Of a stretch of 64,000 bases of DNA, positions 9,767 through 46,465 are shown piece after piece. Made by a program: the position numbers and the translations under genes. The notes beneath the pieces were generated by a model, which made no database searches, was not told the origin of the DNA, and saw only the letters and a program-made list of their open reading frames with translations. Source of the stretch: Clostridiales bacterium (GTDB taxonomy: Bacteria; Bacillota; Clostridia; Christensenellales; Aristaeellaceae). The DNA is taken from positions 1 to 64,000 of the forward strand of contig SVGY01000013.1 of assembly GCA_015056145.1 (NCBI GenBank), read 5' to 3'. Position 1 is the first letter of the stretch; each line of letters opens with the position of its first letter.

Positions 9767-10516
9767 GTGAAGCTGGATCAGATCATCGCCAAACCTGTGG
9801 GTAAGACCGTATATCGGGATGGCGATGTGGTCATTAAGGTTTTTGATGAAAGCTATGACAAGGCGGATGTACTCAACGAAGCGCTCAATCAGGCCAGGGT
9901 GGAACGGTCTCAGCTGAATATCCCCCGTGTTCGGGGCGTGGAGCTGGTGGAGGGCAAATGGGCCGTCGTCAGCGACTTTATCGAAGGGGATACCCTGTAC
10001 AAACTCATCTCTACCCTGCCGGAAAAACGGGGCGAGTTCATGAACCAGTTTGTTGAGCTGCAACGCCTTGTGCACAGCCAGACCTGCCCCATGCTGAATC
10101 GTTTCAAGGACAAGCTCAACACCAAAATCAGCCAGAGCGACCTGGATGTGCAGCTGCGCTACGCCCTGCATACAAGGCTGGAAAGCATGCCTACCCATTC
10201 CAAGCTGTGCCATGGTGACTTCAACCCCAAAAACATCATCATTTCCCGGGACGGCACGCCCTTCATCCTGGACTGGAGCCATGCCTCCGTGGGCAATGCC
10301 AGCGCCGACGTAGCCCAGACCTATCTGCAGTTTTCCATGGGAGAATACCGTGACGATGCCGAACGCTACCTGAACCTGTTCTGCAAAATGAACGATGTTA
10401 CCAAACGCTACGTCACCAAATGGATCCCCATTGTGGCTGCAAGCCAGCTGATACGCTGCAAGCCAGCGGAAAAGCCCTTCCTGATGAAATGGGTGGAAAG
10501 CATCCGGGAAGACTGA
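9767..10516 (+). CDS. Small-molecule kinase of the APH/choline-kinase superfamily
   Basis: The 249-residue protein has the eukaryotic-like kinase fold of aminoglycoside phosphotransferase-related enzymes: Lys in VVIKVFDE near residue 25, the catalytic loop HGDFNPKNIII (Brenner motif HxDxxxxN) and the metal-binding LDWSHAS segment. The GTG start at 9767 follows GAAGGAGGG at 8 bases. A TATAAT at 9714-9719 could be its -10, with a poor -35. The phosphate acceptor is unknown; neighbours give no clue, so antibiotic resistance should not be assumed. Confidence 0.8.
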   Translation: MKLDQIIAKPVGKTVYRDGDVVIKVFDESYDKADVLNEALNQARVERSQLNIPRVRGVELVEGKWAVVSDFIEGDTLYKLISTLPEKRGEFMNQFVELQRLVHSQTCPMLNRFKDKLNTKISQSDLDVQLRYALHTRLESMPTHSKLCHGDFNPKNIIISRDGTPFILDWSHASVGNASADVAQTYLQFSMGEYRDDAERYLNLFCKMNDVTKRYVTKWIPIVAASQLIRCKPAEKPFLMKWVESIRED

Positions 10517-38165: not shown

Positions 38166-40430
38166 TTACAGCTTGTTGCGCTGAATCTTGCCGGAGATGG
38201 TCTTGGGCAGCTCCGTACGGAATTCCACGATGCGGGGGTACTTGTAGGGAGCAGTGTGTTTTTTGACGTAGCTCTGGATCTCCTTCTTGAGCTCGTCGGT
38301 GCCTTCGGTATCCTTGGTCAGCACGATGCAGGCCTTGACCACCTGGCCACGCACATCATCCGGTGCGCCGGTGACGCCGCATTCCAGCACATAGGGCAGC
38401 TCCATGATGACGGACTCGATCTCGAAGGGTCCGATGCGGTAGCCGGAGGACTTGATCACATCATCCACACGGCTGACGTACCAGAAGAAGCCCTGTTCGT
38501 CCTTCCATGCCACGTCGCCGGTATGATACCAGCCGTCATGCAGCACGGCATCGGTCTTTTCCTGATCCCGATAGTAGCCAAGGAACAGGCCACAGGGAAC
38601 CTTTTTGCTGGTACGGATGCAGATTTCGCCGTTCTGTCCGGTGGGCACAGGATTGCCGTCGGGATCAAGGAGGGCGATATCATACAGCGGGCTGGCCTTA
38701 CCCATGGAGCCCACCTTGTGGGCATGGCCCACCAGATTGGCGATGGACAGGGTGGTTTCGGTCTGGCCGAAGCCTTCGATGAGCTGCAGGCCGGTGAGCT
38801 TTTCAAACTGGTAGTATACTTCGGGGTTCAGTGCCTCGCCGGCAGTGGTGGCACGCACCACGGAAGAGAAATCGTACTTGGTCAGATCCTGCTTGATCAT
38901 CATGCGGTACATGGTGGGCGGTGCGCAGAAAGTGGTGATCTTGTACTGGCCGAACAGGGGCAGGATATCCGCAGCATCAAAGCGGTCAAAGTCGTAGGTG
39001 AAAACGCCGCCCTCGCAGAGCCACTGGCCGTAGAACTTGCCCCAGAGCGCCTTGCCCCAGCCCGTATCGGAAATGGTGAAATGCAGGCCGTTGCGGTGCA
39101 CACAGTGCCAGTACTTGGCAGTGATGTAATGACCCAGGGGGTACTTGAAGCTATGGGTAGCGATCTTGGGATATCCGGTGGTGCCGGAGGTAAAGAACAT
39201 CAGCATGGGATCGTTGCCGCAGGGGGTTTCCTCCGTGCGCAGATAGCGACGGCTGAACAGGCCGAATTCGCTGTCAAAGTCATGCCAGCCTTCCCTGCTT
39301 CCGCCCACAAGGATCTTGTTTTTCAGCGTGGGGCAGGTTTCCGCTGCCAACTCCACCTGATGGGCCACGTCGCCATCGGCGGTACACAGGATGGCGCTCA
39401 CGCCGGCGGCCTGGAAGCGGTATTCAAAATCGTGGGCCAAAAGCTGGTTGGTGGCAGGAATGGCGATGGCGCCCAGCTTGCAAAGGGCCACCATGGCGGG
39501 CCAGAACTGCCAGTGGCGCTTCAAAACCAGCATGACACGGTCGCCTTTCTTTACCCCCAGAGAGGTGAAGTAGTTGGCGGCCTGGTTGGACAGGTCTTTG
39601 ATATCCTTAAAGGTGAAGCGGCGTTCTTCCTTGGTGCGGCTCAGGTGCATCATGGCCAGCTTTTCGGGCTCCTTGCGGGCCACGGAATCCACGATATCAA
39701 AGCCGAAGTTGAACTGGTCTTCATTTTCAAAATCGATGGACACAAGCGTGCCGTTTTCGTCTTCCTCTGCCTTGATGAACTTGTTGCAGCACAGGCCCTC
39801 GTCATCCTCCACCACGGGCGCATGCCTTTCCTGAATTTCGCCCGTATCGGCGGATTTGCCGTGAAGAACCATGGCAAGGAACAGGCACTCCTCGTTTTCC
39901 ACAGCGATCATGCCGTGGGGAGTGGCAGAGTCGTAGTAGATGCTGTCGCCCTCGTGGAGGATCTCGGTATGTTCACCGATCTGCACCTTCAGGGAGCCCT
40001 TGAGGATCAAGTCAAACTCCTGGCCGGAGTGAGTGGCCAGCTGGATAGGCTTATCCTGCTGCTCGGGCAGATAATCGTAGCGAACCCAGTACGGCTCGGC
40101 GATCTTCTGGCGGAACATGGGCGCAAGGTTCTGGATACGGATGCCCCGCTCCTTGGCGGTGGTCACGCCACGATCCTTCCGGGTAACGGTGTAGCTGGTC
40201 AAATGGGCGCTGTGGCCCTCCAGCAGATCCGTCAATTCAATGCCGAAAGCCAGTGCGCATTTATGGATAAAGGAAAAAGGAAGATCCACATTGCCGTTTT
40301 CGTATTCGATGTAGGTTTCCTCGCTCAGCTGAGTGCGAATAGCCATTTCCTCCGTAGAGAAGCTCATAATCTGCCGCATCTCACGAATACGAAGAGCGAT
40401 TTCCTGAATCTGTTGTTTGGACTGGTTCAC
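38166..40430 (-). CDS. XRE-HTH + cupin + acyl-CoA synthetase fusion, T-box controlled
   Basis: The 754-residue protein fuses three parts. Residues ~1-65 are an XRE helix-turn-helix (MRQIMSFSTEEMAIRTQLSE, YIEYENGNVDLPFSF). Residues ~130-195 are a cupin (HSGQEFDLILKGSLKVQIGE, EGDSIYYDSATPHGM). Residues ~225-750 are an AMP-forming acyl-CoA synthetase: A3 motif FFTSGTTGYPK, A5 EGFGQTETT, A7 YHTGDVAWKDEQGF, A8 RVDDVIKSSGYRIGPFEIE and A10 PKTISGKIQRNKL, whose Lys is intact. XRE-cupin proteins are normally stand-alone repressors of ~180 residues. GTG start with AAGGAGG. The leader is a T-box (40453-40731), so expression should rise when one tRNA is uncharged. Confidence 0.93.
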   Translation of the reverse strand: MNQSKQQIQEIALRIREMRQIMSFSTEEMAIRTQLSEETYIEYENGNVDLPFSFIHKCALAFGIELTDLLEGHSAHLTSYTVTRKDRGVTTAKERGIRIQNLAPMFRQKIAEPYWVRYDYLPEQQDKPIQLATHSGQEFDLILKGSLKVQIGEHTEILHEGDSIYYDSATPHGMIAVENEECLFLAMVLHGKSADTGEIQERHAPVVEDDEGLCCNKFIKAEEDENGTLVSIDFENEDQFNFGFDIVDSVARKEPEKLAMMHLSRTKEERRFTFKDIKDLSNQAANYFTSLGVKKGDRVMLVLKRHWQFWPAMVALCKLGAIAIPATNQLLAHDFEYRFQAAGVSAILCTADGDVAHQVELAAETCPTLKNKILVGGSREGWHDFDSEFGLFSRRYLRTEETPCGNDPMLMFFTSGTTGYPKIATHSFKYPLGHYITAKYWHCVHRNGLHFTISDTGWGKALWGKFYGQWLCEGGVFTYDFDRFDAADILPLFGQYKITTFCAPPTMYRMMIKQDLTKYDFSSVVRATTAGEALNPEVYYQFEKLTGLQLIEGFGQTETTLSIANLVGHAHKVGSMGKASPLYDIALLDPDGNPVPTGQNGEICIRTSKKVPCGLFLGYYRDQEKTDAVLHDGWYHTGDVAWKDEQGFFWYVSRVDDVIKSSGYRIGPFEIESVIMELPYVLECGVTGAPDDVRGQVVKACIVLTKDTEGTDELKKEIQSYVKKHTAPYKYPRIVEFRTELPKTISGKIQRNKL

Positions 40431-40452
40431 CGGGCATACCTCCTTTAGCAAA

Positions 40453-40731
40453 TAAAAAACCGTCTCAAAGAATTTTTCTTTGAGACGGGTGTAAACACAT
40501 CCGCGGTACCACTCAAATTGCAGCTTTCACTGCCCCTCAGCGGGTTCCATCAAACCCTGTGCATTTACGCAGCCTCACGGAAAACCTTACTACAGCTTCA
40601 TCAGTTCAGGTTTTCAACTCAGAAGGGATAAGCGCTTGAAACTTCTGCTGCCGGTTTGCACCAACCACCGGCTCTCTGAAAGCGTCCGTTTCGGCCGTCT
40701 TCGTCATCGTCTTTACGGGTATTCAATTACA
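40453..40731 (-). promoter_or_regulatory. T-box riboswitch upstream of the XRE-cupin-ligase gene
   Basis: On the minus strand the leader has a stem I distal loop (AGAGAGCCGG...GGTGCAAACCGG), the T-box sequence GAGTGGTACCGCGG (40514-40501), and the terminator CCGTCTCAAAG/CTTTGAGACGG (arms 40488-40478 and 40470-40460) followed by TTTTTTATTT just before the gene. TGGT in the T-box can pair with an ACCA tRNA end, i.e. discriminator A. The specifier is ambiguous: ATC (Ile) or CTT (Leu) are the best fits in the loop opposite the K-turn-like GA motif. Confidence 0.93.
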
Positions 40732-40797: not shown

Positions 40798-43329
40798 TCA
40801 GGCAGTCACAATGGCATTGGCTTCCTGCAATTTCAGCAGTTCCACAGCCTCTTCCCGCATTTTGTACTTGAGGATCTTTCCGGCGGCGTTCATGGGGAAA
40901 CTGTCCACAAACACCACATAGCGGGGTGTTTTGTGCTTGGCCATATGGCTCATGACGTATTCCTTCATTTCGGCCTCGGTGGAGGTCTCCCCTTCCCTGA
41001 GAATAACGCAGGCCATAATCTCCTCGCCGTACTGCTTGTCGGGCACACCGATGACCTGCACATCCTTCACCTTGGGATGGGTGTAGATGAAATCCTCGAT
41101 TTCCTTGGGGTAGATATTTTCGCCGCCACGGATGATCATATCCTTAATGCGACCGGTAATCTTGTAGTTGCCGTTTTCGTCCCGGCGTGCCAGGTCGCCG
41201 GTATGGAGCCAACCCTGGCTGTCGATGGCGGCGGCGGTAGCCTCGGGCATCTTGTAGTAGCCTTTCATGATGTTGTAGCCACGGGCCACAAACTCGCCGT
41301 CCACGCCGTCGGGCACAGGTTCGTTGGTTTCCGGATCCACAATGCGGCATTCCACGCCGAAGATGGCGCTGCCCACGGTGTTCACACGCACATCGATGCT
41401 GTCGGTGGTCTTGGACATGGTGGTGGCGGGGCTGGCCTCGGTCTGTCCGTAGGTAATGCAGATCTCATCCATATGCATCTTCTTGATTACCTCTTCCATC
41501 ACCTTGATGGGGCAGGGGCTGCCAGCCATAATGCCGGTACGCATATGGCTGAAATCCGTCTTGTCAAAGTCTTCGTGGCCCAGCATGGCGATAAACATGG
41601 TGGGCACGCCGTGGAAGCAGGTGATCTTTTCCTGATTGATGCACTTTAGGCCCTTTCTGGGCGAGAAAGCAGGAATGGGGCTCATGGTAACGCCGTGCGT
41701 CATGGAGGCAGTCATGGCCAGCACCATGCCGAAACAATGGAACATGGGTACCTGGATCATCATGCGGTCGGCGGTGGAAAGATCCATGCAGTCACCAATG
41801 GCCTTGCCGTTGTTGACCACGTTGTAGTGGGTCAGCATAACGCCCTTGGGGAAACCGGTAGTACCGGAGGTGTACTGCATGTTGCACACATCGTGCTTGT
41901 TGATGGCGTTGGCCCTGCGGATCACTTCGGAGGGATCCACACAGTCCGCCATGGACAGGGCATCCTCCCAGGTGAGGCAACCCTCCTGACGGCTTTCCAC
42001 GGTGATGATATTGCGCAGGAAGGGGAACCTGCGGGTATGCAGGGGCTGGAAGGGATCGTGGCCCTGCAGTTCGGGGCACAGTTCACGGACGATGGCCACA
42101 TAGTCGCTGTCCTTGTAGCCATCCACCATGATGAGGGTATGTGTGTCGCTCTGGCGCAGCAGATACTCTGCTTCGTGGATCTTGTAGGCGGTATTGACCG
42201 ATACCAGCACTGCGCCGATCTTTGTGGTGGCCCAGAAGGCAATGTACCATGCGGGCACATTGGTAGCCCAGACAGCCACATGATCGCCGGGCTTCACGCC
42301 CATGGCAATCAGGCTGCGGGCAAACTGATCCACATCATCCCGGAACTGGCTGTAGGTACGGGTGTAATCCAGCTCGGTATAGCGGAATGCGTATTGCTCG
42401 GGGAATTCCTCCACCATACGGTCCAGCACCTGCGGGAAGGTCAGGTCGATCAGCTGATTCTTGGGCCAGATATACTTGCCGGTTTTGCGGGCGTTGTCCT
42501 GCAGGCGGTGGCTGGTAAGGTCGGCGCCCAGGAACTGCTCCATATAATTTGCGAAATGCGGGAACACAATACCTGCAGCCTGCAGCTCGGGGGCGGTATT
42601 CTTGACCCATTCCAGGCTGATGTAGCCTTCGTAGTTCACGGAACGCAAAGCACGGATCATGCTTTCGATGGGCATATCGCCTTCGCCCATGATCTTGTAC
42701 TTCACCTTGCCATCGATCATGACAGAATCCTTGATGTGGATGTGCTTGATGTACACGCCCAGGTTCTGGATGGTGGTTTCGGGACTTTCTCCGGCAAAAC
42801 GATAGGGATGATGCATGTCCCACAGAGCAGCCACATTATCGCTCTCCACCCGTACCAGCAGCTCCCGGAGGCGCTCGGTATCAGAGTAAACGCCGTTGGT
42901 TTCCACCAACAGGATCACGCCGTGCTTCTCGGCATAGGGCGTGATGTCCCTGAGGGCACGGAGCACCACTTCATCATCCACTTCGCCTTCGCTGGCGGCG
43001 TTACGGTCGCCCAAAAGGCGGATATACTTTGCGCCCAGCTTTTCTGCCAGACGGATGTATTCCTTGATTTCTTCCTTTGTTTCAGCCCAGCAGTGCTCGT
43101 CCTTGAGCACGCAGCCAGTGCTCAGGCAGGGGATCTCAAGATGCAGTCTTCTGAGGTTGGCGATGGTCTTGTCGATCTGGTCAGCACGGAAAGGCTGTGC
43201 ACGCACGGAAAAAATATCGTTGCCAAGGCCCCGCATTTCAATGCCGTCAAACCCAAAGTCCTTGGCCATGGAATAAATATCGGACCAGGAAAAATCAGGA
43301 CAACCCAGGGTGGAAAATGCCAGTTTCAT
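40798..43329 (-). CDS. Sugar-isomerase-like TIM barrel + acyl-CoA synthetase fusion, T-box controlled
   Basis: The 843-residue protein starts MKLAFSTLGCPDFSWSDIYS; residues ~1-285 form a xylose-isomerase-like TIM barrel (AP endonuclease 2/sugar phosphate isomerase fold) with putative metal ligands Glu in LLVETNG, Asp/His in ALWDMHHPYRF, His in IKHIHIKDS and Glu in GYISLEWVKN. Residues ~300-835 are an acyl-CoA synthetase: A3 QYTSGTTGFPKG, A5 ITYGQTEASP, A7 WLHTGDLARRDENG, A8 RIKDMIIRGGENIYPKEIE, A10 PMNAAGKILKYKMRE. The start at 43329 has GGAGG 8 bases upstream. The first domain should have no part in acid activation; its substrate is unknown. A T-box precedes the gene. A different promoter separates it from its downstream neighbour. 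Confidence 0.93.
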   Translation of the reverse strand: MKLAFSTLGCPDFSWSDIYSMAKDFGFDGIEMRGLGNDIFSVRAQPFRADQIDKTIANLRRLHLEIPCLSTGCVLKDEHCWAETKEEIKEYIRLAEKLGAKYIRLLGDRNAASEGEVDDEVVLRALRDITPYAEKHGVILLVETNGVYSDTERLRELLVRVESDNVAALWDMHHPYRFAGESPETTIQNLGVYIKHIHIKDSVMIDGKVKYKIMGEGDMPIESMIRALRSVNYEGYISLEWVKNTAPELQAAGIVFPHFANYMEQFLGADLTSHRLQDNARKTGKYIWPKNQLIDLTFPQVLDRMVEEFPEQYAFRYTELDYTRTYSQFRDDVDQFARSLIAMGVKPGDHVAVWATNVPAWYIAFWATTKIGAVLVSVNTAYKIHEAEYLLRQSDTHTLIMVDGYKDSDYVAIVRELCPELQGHDPFQPLHTRRFPFLRNIITVESRQEGCLTWEDALSMADCVDPSEVIRRANAINKHDVCNMQYTSGTTGFPKGVMLTHYNVVNNGKAIGDCMDLSTADRMMIQVPMFHCFGMVLAMTASMTHGVTMSPIPAFSPRKGLKCINQEKITCFHGVPTMFIAMLGHEDFDKTDFSHMRTGIMAGSPCPIKVMEEVIKKMHMDEICITYGQTEASPATTMSKTTDSIDVRVNTVGSAIFGVECRIVDPETNEPVPDGVDGEFVARGYNIMKGYYKMPEATAAAIDSQGWLHTGDLARRDENGNYKITGRIKDMIIRGGENIYPKEIEDFIYTHPKVKDVQVIGVPDKQYGEEIMACVILREGETSTEAEMKEYVMSHMAKHKTPRYVVFVDSFPMNAAGKILKYKMREEAVELLKLQEANAIVTA

Positions 43330-43361
43330 GTAAGAAACCTCCTTCTTTTTGCGCCGGATAA

Positions 43362-43643
43362 AGAAAAATGCTTTCATCCCCGGCAGTAAACTGCAAGAGA
43401 CGAAAGCATGAATAAACATATCTTCCGCGGTACCACTCTTGTTGACGGCCTTCGCCGCCCGCTCCGGCATCCTATGAATGCCTCTCCCTTTCACGGTGGA
43501 ATCCGTCTGACTTTACTGGGTGCAATGCACCGTTGAGCCAGCCGCTCAGGGGCCAGTATCAGTCGTTATCCCCGTCTGCTTGCACCAACCGCAGACTCTC
43601 TGAGGGCGGACAGGCGACCGTTTCTCCCCGTCTTGGCGTTTAT
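43362..43643 (-). promoter_or_regulatory. T-box riboswitch upstream of the TIM-barrel-ligase gene
   Basis: On the minus strand: K-turn-like GA element with GGGG/CCCC helix, specifier loop ATACTGG, stem I distal loop (AGAGAGTCTGC...GGTGCAAGCAGAC), T-box sequence AAGAGTGGTACCGCGG (43440-43425) and terminator ATGCTTTC/GAAAGCAT (arms 43409-43402 and 43375-43368) followed by TTTTTCTTT. By alignment with the B. subtilis glyQS arrangement the specifier codon is CTG (Leu) followed by G. TGGT in the T-box matches a tRNA with discriminator A, as Leu tRNAs have. Confidence 0.93.
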
Positions 43644-43649
43644 GTGGGG

Positions 43650-43678
43650 ATTATAGCCGGGAACCAGCCCGCTGTCAA
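43650..43678 (-). promoter_or_regulatory. Promoter of the T-box/TIM-barrel-ligase transcript
   Basis: On the minus strand TTGACA (43678-43673), 17-bp spacer, TATAAT (43655-43650): consensus at both boxes. Confidence 0.92.
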
Positions 43679-43883: not shown

Positions 43884-44600
43884 ATGCATTCCAGTCTTAA
43901 GCTGGATCAGCTGTATGTTACGGTAGATATTCTGATCCTGACAGAAAAAAACGGCGTACTGAATCTTCTCCTTTCAAAGCGCAGTCACCCTCCGGCGGAA
44001 AGCCGCTGGGCACTGCCCGGACGCTTCATCTCCCTCGGGGATTCTGCCGAAGATACCGTAAAGGACCTGCTGCGTGAAATGCTTCCCGTAAAACAGTACT
44101 ACTTTGAGCAGCTTTATACCTTTACCCGGCCGGAGCGTGATCCACGAGGACGAGTTCTTTCCATCGCCTATCTGGCCATCATCCCCTGGCAACACCTGCA
44201 GCCCGTACTGAATCATTCGGATATTACGCTGAAATGTTTCTCAGTCTCAACCTCGGAAGCGACGCTTTCCCTCGTCGCTCCGGAAGGGAACCCCTTCCCC
44301 GAAAGCGAACTGGCCTTTGACCACGCCCACATCATCCGTACGGGTATCACACGCCTGCAGGGAAAAATTGAGTACACCGATATCGGCTTTCATTTCCTGA
44401 ATACTCCGCAAGCCTTTTTCCTGAGCGAAATGCAGCGCATCTACGAAGCGGTGCTGGGCAGAGCGCAGGATGCCAGCAATTTCCGTCGCTTTCTGCGGAG
44501 CCGTTACGAAGACACCGGCAAGATCATCCCCTCGGAAATCACCGAAAAAAAAGGCAGAGGTCGTCCCGCCGTGCTCTACAGCTGGGATCCTCAATATTAG
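43884..44600 (+). CDS. nrtR: NrtR-like Nudix-domain transcriptional regulator
   Basis: The 238-residue protein has an N-terminal Nudix-like domain (residues ~10-140: LYVTVDILILTEKNGVLNLL, SRWALPGRFISLGDSAEDTV; the catalytic Nudix box GxxxxxExxxxxxxREUxEExGU is largely lost: RDxxxEE is LLREMLPV) and a C-terminal winged helix (~155-235, TDIGFHFLNTPQAFFLSEMQ, SNFRRFLRSRYEDTGK, GRGRPAVLYSW). This is the NrtR/NudR family that represses NAD-synthesis genes and is released by ADP-ribose. Start 43884 follows GGAGGTGG. pncA starts 13 bases later. Confidence 0.93.
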   Translation: MHSSLKLDQLYVTVDILILTEKNGVLNLLLSKRSHPPAESRWALPGRFISLGDSAEDTVKDLLREMLPVKQYYFEQLYTFTRPERDPRGRVLSIAYLAIIPWQHLQPVLNHSDITLKCFSVSTSEATLSLVAPEGNPFPESELAFDHAHIIRTGITRLQGKIEYTDIGFHFLNTPQAFFLSEMQRIYEAVLGRAQDASNFRRFLRSRYEDTGKIIPSEITEKKGRGRPAVLYSWDPQY

Positions 44601-44613
44601 GGAGGAAACTACC

Positions 44614-45150
44614 ATGACCGAAAAGAAAATCCTGATCGTAGTGGATATGCAGAACGATTTCATCAATGGTGCATTGGGAACCGCAGAAGCAAAAGGCATT
44701 CTTGAACCGGCACAGAAACGCATCGAAGCCTGCGCCAAGGAGGGTTACACGCTTTTTGCCACCCTTGATACACACTTTGACAACTACATGGACACCCCCG
44801 AGGGCAAAAAGCTGCCTGTCCCCCACTGCATCAAGGGCACAGACGGCTGGGCCATCCACCCGGAGATCAACGCCGTGCTTGGAAACTGCACGCTGGTGGA
44901 AAAAACCACCTTCGGCAGCACTGACCTGCCCCGCCTCATCGCCCGGGAGGCAGAAGGCGCTGACAAACTGACCATCGAACTTATCGGCCTGTGTACGGAC
45001 ATCTGCGTGGTGAGCAACGCCCTGATGCTCAAGGCTCACTTCCCCGATGCAGATATCGCCGTAAATGCTGCCTGCTGTGCCGGAGTAACCCCCGCAAAGC
45101 ATCTCGCCGCCCTGGAAACCATGCGCAGCTGCCAGATTGATGTGATCTGA
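44614..45150 (+). CDS. pncA: Nicotinamidase
   Basis: The 178-residue isochorismatase-fold enzyme hydrolyses nicotinamide to nicotinate. The catalytic triad is visible: Asp in VVDMQNDFINGALG, Lys in VEKTTFGS, Cys in IGLCTDICV (Cys nucleophile). The Asp-x-His metal site of PncA is in ATLDTHFDNYMDT. It follows the Nudix regulator by 13 bases and precedes pncB, giving a complete salvage step from nicotinamide to nicotinate mononucleotide. Confidence 0.95.
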   Translation: MTEKKILIVVDMQNDFINGALGTAEAKGILEPAQKRIEACAKEGYTLFATLDTHFDNYMDTPEGKKLPVPHCIKGTDGWAIHPEINAVLGNCTLVEKTTFGSTDLPRLIAREAEGADKLTIELIGLCTDICVVSNALMLKAHFPDADIAVNAACCAGVTPAKHLAALETMRSCQIDVI

Positions 45151-45271
45151 TCCCATGAAGAGCGGCTGCAAGAAGTGCGAGCCAGAGGAAGAACAAGTCT
45201 GCTTTGACCCGTTCGGCTACGCTCTTTTTGGAGCAAACGGCTGCCAGCATAATACAAGGAGGAAAACCATC

Positions 45272-46465
45272 GTGAAGCTTGAACCCATCGTTCTTTCCCT
45301 TTTGGATACCGACCTGTACAAATTCAACATGGATCAGGTGATCTTCCACAAACATACGGATCTGTGCGGAGAATACTACTTCCGCTGCCGCAACGAGGGC
45401 GTGGTTTTCACACAGGAGATGTTTGAGGAGATCAATGCCCAGATCGACCATCTCTGCACCCTCACCTTCAAAAAGGAAGAGCTGGACTATCTGCGTTCCA
45501 TCCGTTTCATCAAGGATGACTATGTGGAATTCCTCCGCCTGTGGCGGCCCATCCGGGATTATGTACAAACCGGTCTGACCGACGAAGGCAAACTGGAGAT
45601 CGTTGTTCGGGGGCCCCTGTTTTCGGCCATGCAGTTTGAAATATTCCTGCTGGAAATCGTCAACGAAGTATATTTCCGCATGAAATACGATTACGCAACC
45701 CTCCGGGCTTCTGCCGAAGAGAGGCTGAACCAGAAGATCCTCGGTTTCAAGGAAGGCAAATACACCTTCAAATTTGCGGAATTCGGCTGCCGCCGCAGGC
45801 TCTCCCGGGAATGGCAGGATGAAGTGGTACGCCGCCTTGCCACGGAAGTCAGCAATTGTGTTGGCACTTCCAATGTGTACCTTGCCATGAAATACAATCT
45901 GACTCCCATCGGCACCTATGCCCACGAATATGTGCAGATGTACCAGGGCATTGATTCCATCCCTCTGGCATACACCAATCACTATGCCATGGAGGATTGG
46001 TACAACGAGTACAAGGGCGATAACGGTACCGCCCTGACGGATACCATCACTACGGAGCTGTTCCTTTTGGACTTCAACCGGGCCATGGTGAACAACTTTA
46101 CCGGCGTGCGCCACGACAGCGGCGATCCCTTCGCATGGGGCGACAAGATGATCGAACACTACCAGAAATACGATGCCGATCCCAAAACCAAGCAGCTTCT
46201 CTTCAGCGACGGTCTGGACTTTGACAAAGCCCAGGCTCTGCAGGATTACTTTGAAGGCCGGGCAAAGGTATCCTTTGGCATCGGTACTTTCTGCTCCAAC
46301 GACACCTGTGAAAAGGCGCTGAATATCGTCATCAAGCTGCAAACGGTAAACGGTCGTGCCGTTGCCAAGCTTTCCGACACTCCCGGAAAGGCAATGTGCC
46401 GGGATGATGAATACCTCAAGTATCTGAAGCAATCGGTAGCCTTCCGGCTGAACCGGGAAAAATAA
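45272..46465 (+). CDS. pncB: Nicotinate phosphoribosyltransferase
   Basis: The 397-residue enzyme converts nicotinate plus PRPP to nicotinate mononucleotide. Landmarks: LLDTDLYKFNMDQVIFHK, FAEFGCRRRLSREWQDEVV, GTSNVYLAMKYNLTPIGTYA (His-containing loop after GTYAHE), TGVRHDSGDPFAWGDKMIEH, and LLFSDGLDFDKA. It is the shorter PncB type. The GTG start at 45272 follows AAGGAGG. In the 121 bases between pncA and pncB an in-frame upstream ATG (45155) would add a Cys-rich 39-residue extension (CKKCEPEEEQVC), but lacks a ribosome binding site. Confidence 0.94.
   Translation: MKLEPIVLSLLDTDLYKFNMDQVIFHKHTDLCGEYYFRCRNEGVVFTQEMFEEINAQIDHLCTLTFKKEELDYLRSIRFIKDDYVEFLRLWRPIRDYVQTGLTDEGKLEIVVRGPLFSAMQFEIFLLEIVNEVYFRMKYDYATLRASAEERLNQKILGFKEGKYTFKFAEFGCRRRLSREWQDEVVRRLATEVSNCVGTSNVYLAMKYNLTPIGTYAHEYVQMYQGIDSIPLAYTNHYAMEDWYNEYKGDNGTALTDTITTELFLLDFNRAMVNNFTGVRHDSGDPFAWGDKMIEHYQKYDADPKTKQLLFSDGLDFDKAQALQDYFEGRAKVSFGIGTFCSNDTCEKALNIVIKLQTVNGRAVAKLSDTPGKAMCRDDEYLKYLKQSVAFRLNREK

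Follow-up and report, generated by a model that had tools for sequence, protein, structure and literature searches.

The window analysed here (the whole stretch of 64,000 nucleotides from contig SVGY01000013.1 of a Clostridiales bacterium, assembly GCA_015056145.1) carries on its minus strand two acyl-CoA synthetase genes, P0001 and P0002, each preceded by a promoter and a T-box leader. The unit of P0001 consists of the following features:

43650 to 43678, minus strand: promoter of the P0001 unit, sigma-70-type (TTGACA-17-TATAAT)
43393 to 43643, minus strand: T-box leader 1 (Leu), Rfam RF00230, above the gathering score
43554 to 43556, minus strand: specifier CUG (Leu) of leader 1, read by eye in the register that this genome's metG (AUG) and ileS (AUC) leaders also use
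43432 to 43435, minus strand: T-box bulge UGGU of leader 1, matching the ACCA end of tRNA-Leu(CAG) with its discriminator A
43360 to 43410, minus strand: intrinsic terminator of leader 1 (by folding energy), overlapping the 3' strand of the antiterminator
40798 to 43329, minus strand: P0001, 843 aa, a TIM barrel (AP_endonuc_2, PF01261) with the AMP-binding and AMP-binding_C domains of an acyl-CoA synthetase (Pfam domains)

Much of this arrangement had been claimed in an earlier note on the same DNA, and it was confirmed. Specifically, a search with the Rfam covariance model returned RF00230 on the minus strand at 43643-43393 (score 95.1 bits, gathering threshold 93, E 1.4e-19), spanning model positions 1-219, i.e., the full length; the promoter described as consensus matched at 12 of 12 positions (43678-43650); the terminator was found at 43410-43360; and the suggested fusion of a TIM barrel to an acyl-CoA synthetase was confirmed by the three Pfam domains of P0001. 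The T-box at 43643-43393 is a genuine member of the ordinary T-box family, which it resembles in its full-length match, specifier loop, UGGN bulge, antiterminator and terminator, and promoter. It differs in its target, an acyl-CoA synthetase, unlike the usual aminoacyl-tRNA synthetases, transporters and classical biosynthetic genes. In leader 1 the specifier is followed by G and then by CCCC (43552-43549), which pairs with GGGG (43629-43626). Folded in separate stretches, the terminator reached -25.8 kcal/mol and the antiterminator -11.7 kcal/mol; CGUCUCUU is the strand common to both, and the two folds are mutually exclusive, each stretch folding alone. A terminator pattern scan did not return this terminator. 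The whole leader folded somewhat better than its shuffles (z -2.4, with 3 of 200 shuffles equally good), and its minimum-energy fold was not the T-box fold. A Shine-Dalgarno-like AGAAGGAGG lies at 43346-43338, before P0001. On the plus strand, divergent from the P0001 promoter, Nudix-like, nicotinamidase-like and nicotinate phosphoribosyltransferase-like frames (named from their translations by eye only) occupy 43900-46465.

A second RF00230 match, missing from the earlier note, was found on the minus strand at 40716-40478 (leader 2; 95.6 bits against 93), upstream of P0002:

40738 to 40766, minus strand: promoter of the P0002 unit (TTGACA-17-TATTGT; 10 of 12 matches)
40478 to 40716, minus strand: T-box leader 2 (Ile), Rfam RF00230
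40627 to 40629, minus strand: specifier AUC (Ile) of leader 2, followed by C and by CUUC pairing with GAAG, in the same register as ileS
40454 to 40488, minus strand: intrinsic terminator of leader 2 (13 pairs followed by a T run; -18.8 kcal/mol)
38166 to 40430, minus strand: P0002, XRE helix-turn-helix, cupin and AMP-binding acyl-CoA synthetase (from its domains; closest NCBIfam model MbcS)

The antiterminator and terminator of leader 2 likewise have a strand in common. The start of P0002 is probably the GTG at 40430, behind AAAGGAGG at 40446-40439, within a longer frame that opens at 40451. Since each gene has its own promoter and its own leader, P0001 and P0002 are apparently separate transcription units. 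The XRE helix-turn-helix and the cupin sit at the N-terminus of P0002 and form separate frames in two relatives (L036 and L037); given its helix-turn-helix, P0002 may also bind DNA.

To read the specifiers we used a rule taken by eye from known leaders, in which a single base separates the codon from the 3' strand of a 4-bp helix, and a GAG motif comes next. This gave AUC-A-CCUC-GGAGC for ileS, CUG-G-CCCC-UGAGC for leader 1 and AUC-C-CUUC-UGAGU for leader 2. Both window readings agree with the rule given in the TBDB description (the passages of PMC7778990 on specifier calling), which counts from the 3' end of the specifier bulge and takes positions 2-4 as the codon. Leaders were also called with two scripts, which are tuned to the 4-bp helix and fail on other leader types: among the seven aminoacyl-tRNA synthetase leaders of the window's genome used as a test (met, val, ile, phe, ser, thr, pro), the first script was right for three (met, ile, phe) and the second, which produced the main counts below for 48, 61 and 17 leaders, for two (val, phe). 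By eye the met, val, ile and phe leaders were readable, as was the ser leader when a 5-bp helix was assumed, and the thr and pro leaders were not readable.

The 48 distinct leaders found before P0001-type genes read CUC or CUG in 42 cases by script and in the other six (L015, L065, L066, L070, L081, L192) by eye. Leaders of operons with a LeuA-like gene and a P0001-type gene read Leu in 15 of 17 by script, the two misses being CUC or CUG by eye. A reading that was anchored and independent of pairing gave Leu in 31 of 33 P0001-type and 13 of 15 LeuA-like-first leaders, and Ile in 25 and Val in 23 of 54 P0002-type leaders; this run left 15 of 48, 2 of 17 and 7 of 61 leaders, respectively, unanchored. 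The helix beside the specifier covaries: it paired in 27 of the 33 anchored P0001-type leaders (shuffles: mean 12.6, maximum 19), 48 of the 54 P0002-type leaders (mean 37.4, maximum 43) and 11 of the 15 LeuA-like-first leaders (mean 5.9, maximum 10), and none of 2000 shuffles reached the observed pairing in any of the three sets. An earlier script, whose 5' anchor was poor, gave weaker results for the three sets: 11 of 43 leaders paired (a level that 0 of 2000 shuffles reached), 22 of 59 (21 shuffles) and 9 of 16 (3 shuffles).

We considered whether leader 1 might be read in another frame, as ACU (Thr) or UGG (Trp). Frames -1 and +1 are also considered by the TBDB method (PMC7778990, same passages), and UGG does lie at +1 in leader 1. 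In the relatives, however, position -1 holds a mixture of residues (T, S, A, P) and so does +1 (S, W, stop), while register 0 holds either CUC or CUG and nothing else. That comparison is partly conditioned, being made on leaders already classed as Leu; the counts of 42/48 (script) and 31/33 (anchored) are unconditioned and point the same way. We thus rejected Trp and Thr specifiers for leader 1 on the mixed residues at the shifted registers, and find a frame other than Leu barely credible. The assignment of CTG to leucine in the earlier note held up in a further respect, since tRNA-Leu(CAG) is encoded at two places in the window's genome; the copy inspected has discriminator A, as had been expected from TGGT in the antiterminator. 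tRNA-Ile(GAU), the cognate of AUC in leader 2, was not among the 47 tRNA matches of this genome, which may reflect an assembly gap.

We then asked how far the two arrangements are conserved. For P0001 we took the best 80 of at least 594 places with a relative (70-93% identity in the best segment), which by title are mostly from animal-gut Clostridia and include Ruminococcus flavefaciens (L064). Within up to 700 upstream bases (fewer than 500 in three cases), a T-box core was present in 34 of the 80, and all 34 leaders read Leu by eye (CUC in 26, CUG in 8). The other 46 had no core in the same upstream range, the R. flavefaciens homologue having no T-box, and ten of these 46 searched with Rfam gave none at the gathering score; similarly, in 19 of 30 loci drawn from genomes of the family, the 1500 bases before the P0001 homologue contained no core. 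Several relatives have the leader one gene further upstream. Relatives that consist of the ligase without the TIM barrel (L188-L194) kept a Leu leader in 7 of 7 fetched, which indicates that the T-box link goes with the ligase domain; the barrel missing from them corresponds to window positions 42500-43329 in P0001. A conserved gene neighbourhood was not found around P0001: besides the homologue itself, the biggest common cluster covered 4 of the 80 loci. PaaK-like CoA ligases (named by reading) occur near two homologues (L046:8825-10569, where one is followed by an ACT-domain protein, and L062:10144-11448), perhaps an aromatic-acid version of the same route.

P0002 had a match in 89 of 150 genomes of the family, and a T-box core lay upstream at 29 of the 30 best loci. 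Among 61 distinct P0002-type leaders (a sample chosen for closeness to P0002 together with paralogues near it), the script read AUC in 34 and a Val codon in 24 (GUA 13, GUC 10, GUG 1), with other codons in three; of leaders that the script missed, L213 read GUG and L220 GUA (both Val) by eye, and L121 had no readable stem I. Beyond this sample, only one of 18 regions with more distant MbcS-like paralogues (L136-L153) had a T-box before the ligase (L149, AUC), so many MbcS-like paralogues are not under T-box control. On a tree of 56 proteins, 3 changes sufficed for the Ile label (mean of shuffles 18.5) and 4 for the Val label (17.1), and 0 of 500 shuffles went as low. One clade holds most of the Val members, and L216-L218 form another Val lineage nested within the Ile clade. 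This pattern indicates that specificity tracked paralogue identity and switched more than once.

The neighbours informative about pathway came from L036, L037 and further relatives beyond the 80 loci. In L225 (G050), an Ile T-box with its ligase, a Val T-box with its ligase and a Leu T-box with a LeuA-like gene and a P0001-type gene follow each other in series, and the start of a branched-chain aminotransferase comes next (198 bits on 155 aa, cut by the end of the stretch). L195 (G001) has a Val T-box with its ligase and the Leu unit, followed by an aminotransferase (486 bits against a cut-off of 307) and VorB (529 against 399), and L196 (G123) an Ile and a Val leader, each with a ligase, and behind them VorB with the two remaining VOR subunits. 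In L197 (G047), genes for an ATPase, VOR, an aminotransferase (480 against 307), a LeuA-like protein and a P0001-type protein form one run behind a T-box (G047:C112, core at 10156 on the minus strand, specifier not readable by eye), and in L036 the P0001 homologue adjoins VOR subunits and an XRE-cupin/MbcS-like pair. Across eight such operon loci, six T-boxes exceeded the Rfam gathering score (by position, Ile or Leu leaders). When five of the eight loci were searched by E-value, 8 of 8 leaders matched the T-box model with values no higher than 2.4e-13; the four Val leaders among them scored 70-76 bits, below the gathering score of 93.

A LeuA-like protein precedes the ligase in many of the relatives' Leu T-box operons. 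The HxH metal site was kept in none of 17 aligned LeuA-like proteins and the RD pair only in L237, and the one scanned with Pfam (L195, 6135-7523) retained the LeuA allosteric domain PF08502; judging from these residues, the LeuA-like protein is possibly a leucine-sensing pseudoenzyme. Its position before the ligase could alternatively mean that the Leu-specific ligase acts on some other acid of leucine metabolism, or that the two proteins work together in another leucine route involving the TIM barrel, and it would fit such a reading that the P0001 ligase domain has its best solved-structure matches among fatty-acyl, feruloyl and malonyl CoA ligases, not MbcS-like ones. The loss of the HxH site in all 17 proteins and the persistence of the Leu T-box in all seven barrel-less relatives both argue against it, and we consider this alternative distinctly unlikely.

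Next, we examined the branched-chain pathway in the window's genome itself. KARI (IlvC) and DHAD (IlvD) gave no matches, in a search that was positive in 14 of 14 control genomes, and LeuC was not matched either: the sole PF00330 protein is an aconitase (974 bits against 612; leuC 185 against 560). The genome is 94% complete, so that these absences are not proof. VOR is present (VorB, 566 bits against a cut-off of 399), as is a branched-chain aminotransferase (341 bits against 307 on the 245-aa stretch scanned). A LeuA above the cut-off with an intact HxH motif (L100:8130-9665, G000:C16) occurs there beside the missing IlvC, IlvD and LeuC matches. In 150 family genomes, by raw counts that are not corrected for relatedness, KARI was rarer where a P0002 homologue was present (14 of 89 with, 38 of 61 without) and where a P0001 homologue was present (21 of 91 with, 31 of 59 without); 19 of the 150 had neither KARI nor a homologue of P0001 or P0002. 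With no KARI and no DHAD match, another supply route for branched-chain amino acids is needed.

Searched with an E limit of 0.001, the same genome gave 12 T-box matches, seven of them above the gathering score. Nine precede metG, valS, ileS, serS, thrS, proS, a unit containing pheS, a trpB-like gene and an aminotransferase gene (translations read by eye), and the remaining three stand before P0001, P0002 and a MaoC-like gene (with Pfam support). A genome-wide Rfam search placed no T-box before VOR, the branched-chain aminotransferase or a second MbcS-like paralogue.

Which acids might the two ligases activate? The best NCBIfam model for P0002 was MbcS (NF047394) at 422.2 bits, below the equivalog cut-off of 850, and P0001 passed no NCBIfam cut-off among the matches listed (25 of 119 models). 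The closest solved structure to P0002 was 3etc (605 bits), an AMP-binding protein that we take to come from Methanosarcina acetivorans and, presumably, to have a taste for small branched acids. That match is limited to the ligase part (residues 245-759), and the T-box control and the helix-turn-helix/cupin part of P0002 fall outside it. We infer that MbcS-like enzymes serve Ile and Val and that a different ligase family, that of P0001, serves Leu; P0001 probably activates isovalerate. MbcS of Staphylococcus aureus is a methylbutyryl-CoA synthetase with a known role in branched fatty acids (PMC10026030). An activity of P0002-type ligases on 2-methylbutyrate and isobutyrate would agree with the Ile and Val T-boxes before them. 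Compared with MbcS of S. aureus, P0002 is alike in its ligase domain, for which MbcS is the best NCBIfam model, and differs in its XRE-cupin N-terminus, its T-box control and its proposed product, an amino acid rather than membrane lipid.

That likeness underlies the main rival to amino-acid synthesis, namely the feeding of membrane lipids: the ligases might supply branched-chain acyl-CoA primers to fatty-acid synthesis, with the T-boxes only coupling primers to amino-acid shortage, and the MbcS model that P0002 matches best does have its described role in branched fatty acids (PMC10026030). Three switches specific for three amino acids on three ligases, and operons that include VOR and a branched-chain aminotransferase, fit amino-acid synthesis better, and among the frames read by eye around relatives' loci none was noticed that looked like a fatty-acid synthesis gene. 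We regard the lipid explanation as unlikely.

In the passages of PMC11477304 on mechanism, terminator-type T-boxes switch genes on when their amino acid is scarce, so the ligases under T-box control should be supply enzymes; with VOR and aminotransferase alongside them, the simplest route runs from acid to acyl-CoA, 2-oxo acid and amino acid. Leader 1 would act as a transcriptional T-box riboswitch binding tRNA-Leu(CAG). When leucine runs short, uncharged tRNA-Leu would pair with the specifier (CUG) and with the bulge (UGGU), and P0001 would be made once the antiterminator had formed. P0001 would convert isovalerate to isovaleryl-CoA, VOR would carboxylate this reductively to 2-ketoisocaproate, and the branched-chain aminotransferase would yield leucine. 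Leader 2 would gate P0002 in the same manner, with 2-methylbutyrate activated for isoleucine, and the Val T-box of relatives would gate a paralogue that takes isobutyrate towards valine. The intact LeuA of the window's genome is not needed by this model.

In principle VOR and the aminotransferase can run in either direction, and this leaves room for a catabolic or energy-yielding role in which both would degrade amino acids to acyl-CoA and the ligase would run towards the free acid. A terminator-type T-box, which is on at scarcity (PMC11477304, same passages), behaves in the opposite way to what degradation needs, and the unmatched KARI and DHAD call for another supply route; degradation is on these grounds highly improbable. 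What the sequences show are the T-boxes, their conserved specifiers, a link with VOR and the aminotransferase in some relatives and the lack of KARI, DHAD and LeuC matches in the genome; how the leaders switch, which acids the ligases take and which way VOR runs are inferred. We hold with good confidence that Leu, Ile and Val are made under tRNA gating from isovalerate, 2-methylbutyrate and isobutyrate via CoA ligation and reductive carboxylation. This suggests that these bacteria use tRNA-sensing switches to time the rebuilding of branched-chain amino acids from short branched fatty acids. The earlier note had spoken of an acid-activating enzyme sensing a charged tRNA and had called this surprising: the ligase target was confirmed, but it is the leader RNA, not the enzyme, that would sense tRNA-Leu, and in its uncharged form. 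Being probably a leucine-biosynthesis enzyme, P0001 would bring leader 1 within the usual T-box theme of amino-acid supply, the likely explanation of its unusual target.

The chemistry has precedents. Since the 1960s, rumen bacteria have been credited with carboxylating isovalerate and related acids, and the formation of leucine by isovalerate carboxylation is cited for rumen cultures (Allison and colleagues 1962, 1966, both as cited in passages of PMC7356843). That route involves the same acid, carboxylation and amination, and P0001 homologues occur in Ruminococcus flavefaciens; the passages concerned name neither ligase genes nor tRNA control. For Prevotella bryantii, isovalerate has been proposed to be activated and to enter branched-chain amino acids, the activation being ascribed to a loosely specific acetyl-CoA synthetase in passages that mention no T-box (PMC7709123).

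We lean slightly towards a wider reading, in which many Clostridia, mostly from the gut, have replaced the classical branched-chain pathway by a regulon of acid salvage gated by tRNA through three channels. Each acyl-CoA synthetase (for isovalerate, 2-methylbutyrate or isobutyrate) would have its own T-box (Leu, Ile or Val, respectively), and the three would share a single VOR and a single aminotransferase. A LeuA relative that has lost catalysis but retained the LeuA allosteric domain is encoded in a run with the leucine ligase in many members, and may be the leucine-sensing regulatory subunit of that ligase. If this is true, the T-box specifier is a readable label of each ligase's substrate. 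Assigning a ligase to its acid otherwise needs enzyme-by-enzyme assay; here, a codon in RNA (Leu, Ile or Val) would state the end product and predict the substrate. The set of T-box targets would widen to carboxylic-acid activation, and the leaders would mark, at genome level, bacteria that may rely on other organisms for their branched-chain acids.

The T-box survey PMC2494555 is, we take it, that of Wels et al. 2008. Passages of this survey (PMC2494555) use the specifier to annotate T-box targets, and passages of a 2013 RNA-regulon survey (PMC3766115) sort T-box regulons according to amino acid; neither main text contains the words CoA or ferredoxin. In the literature searched, which comprised main texts and few subscription papers, we recognised no description of a T-box before an acyl-CoA ligase, and acyl-CoA ligase targets of T-boxes appear new there.

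Two further T-boxes of the window's genome deserve mention. One resembles leader 2 and has the specifier AUC (G000:C27; L006, and L013 from about 7300); it precedes the MaoC-like gene, behind which lies a gene for an ACT and metallo-beta-lactamase protein. MaoC was ruled out as a general part of the system, being present in 4 of 150 family genomes only; it directly follows the P0002 homologue in G057, and about 3 kb separate it from KARI in G115. The other (L002, G000:C5) was read as UAC (Tyr) and precedes a gene that by reading encodes a PLP-dependent aminotransferase.
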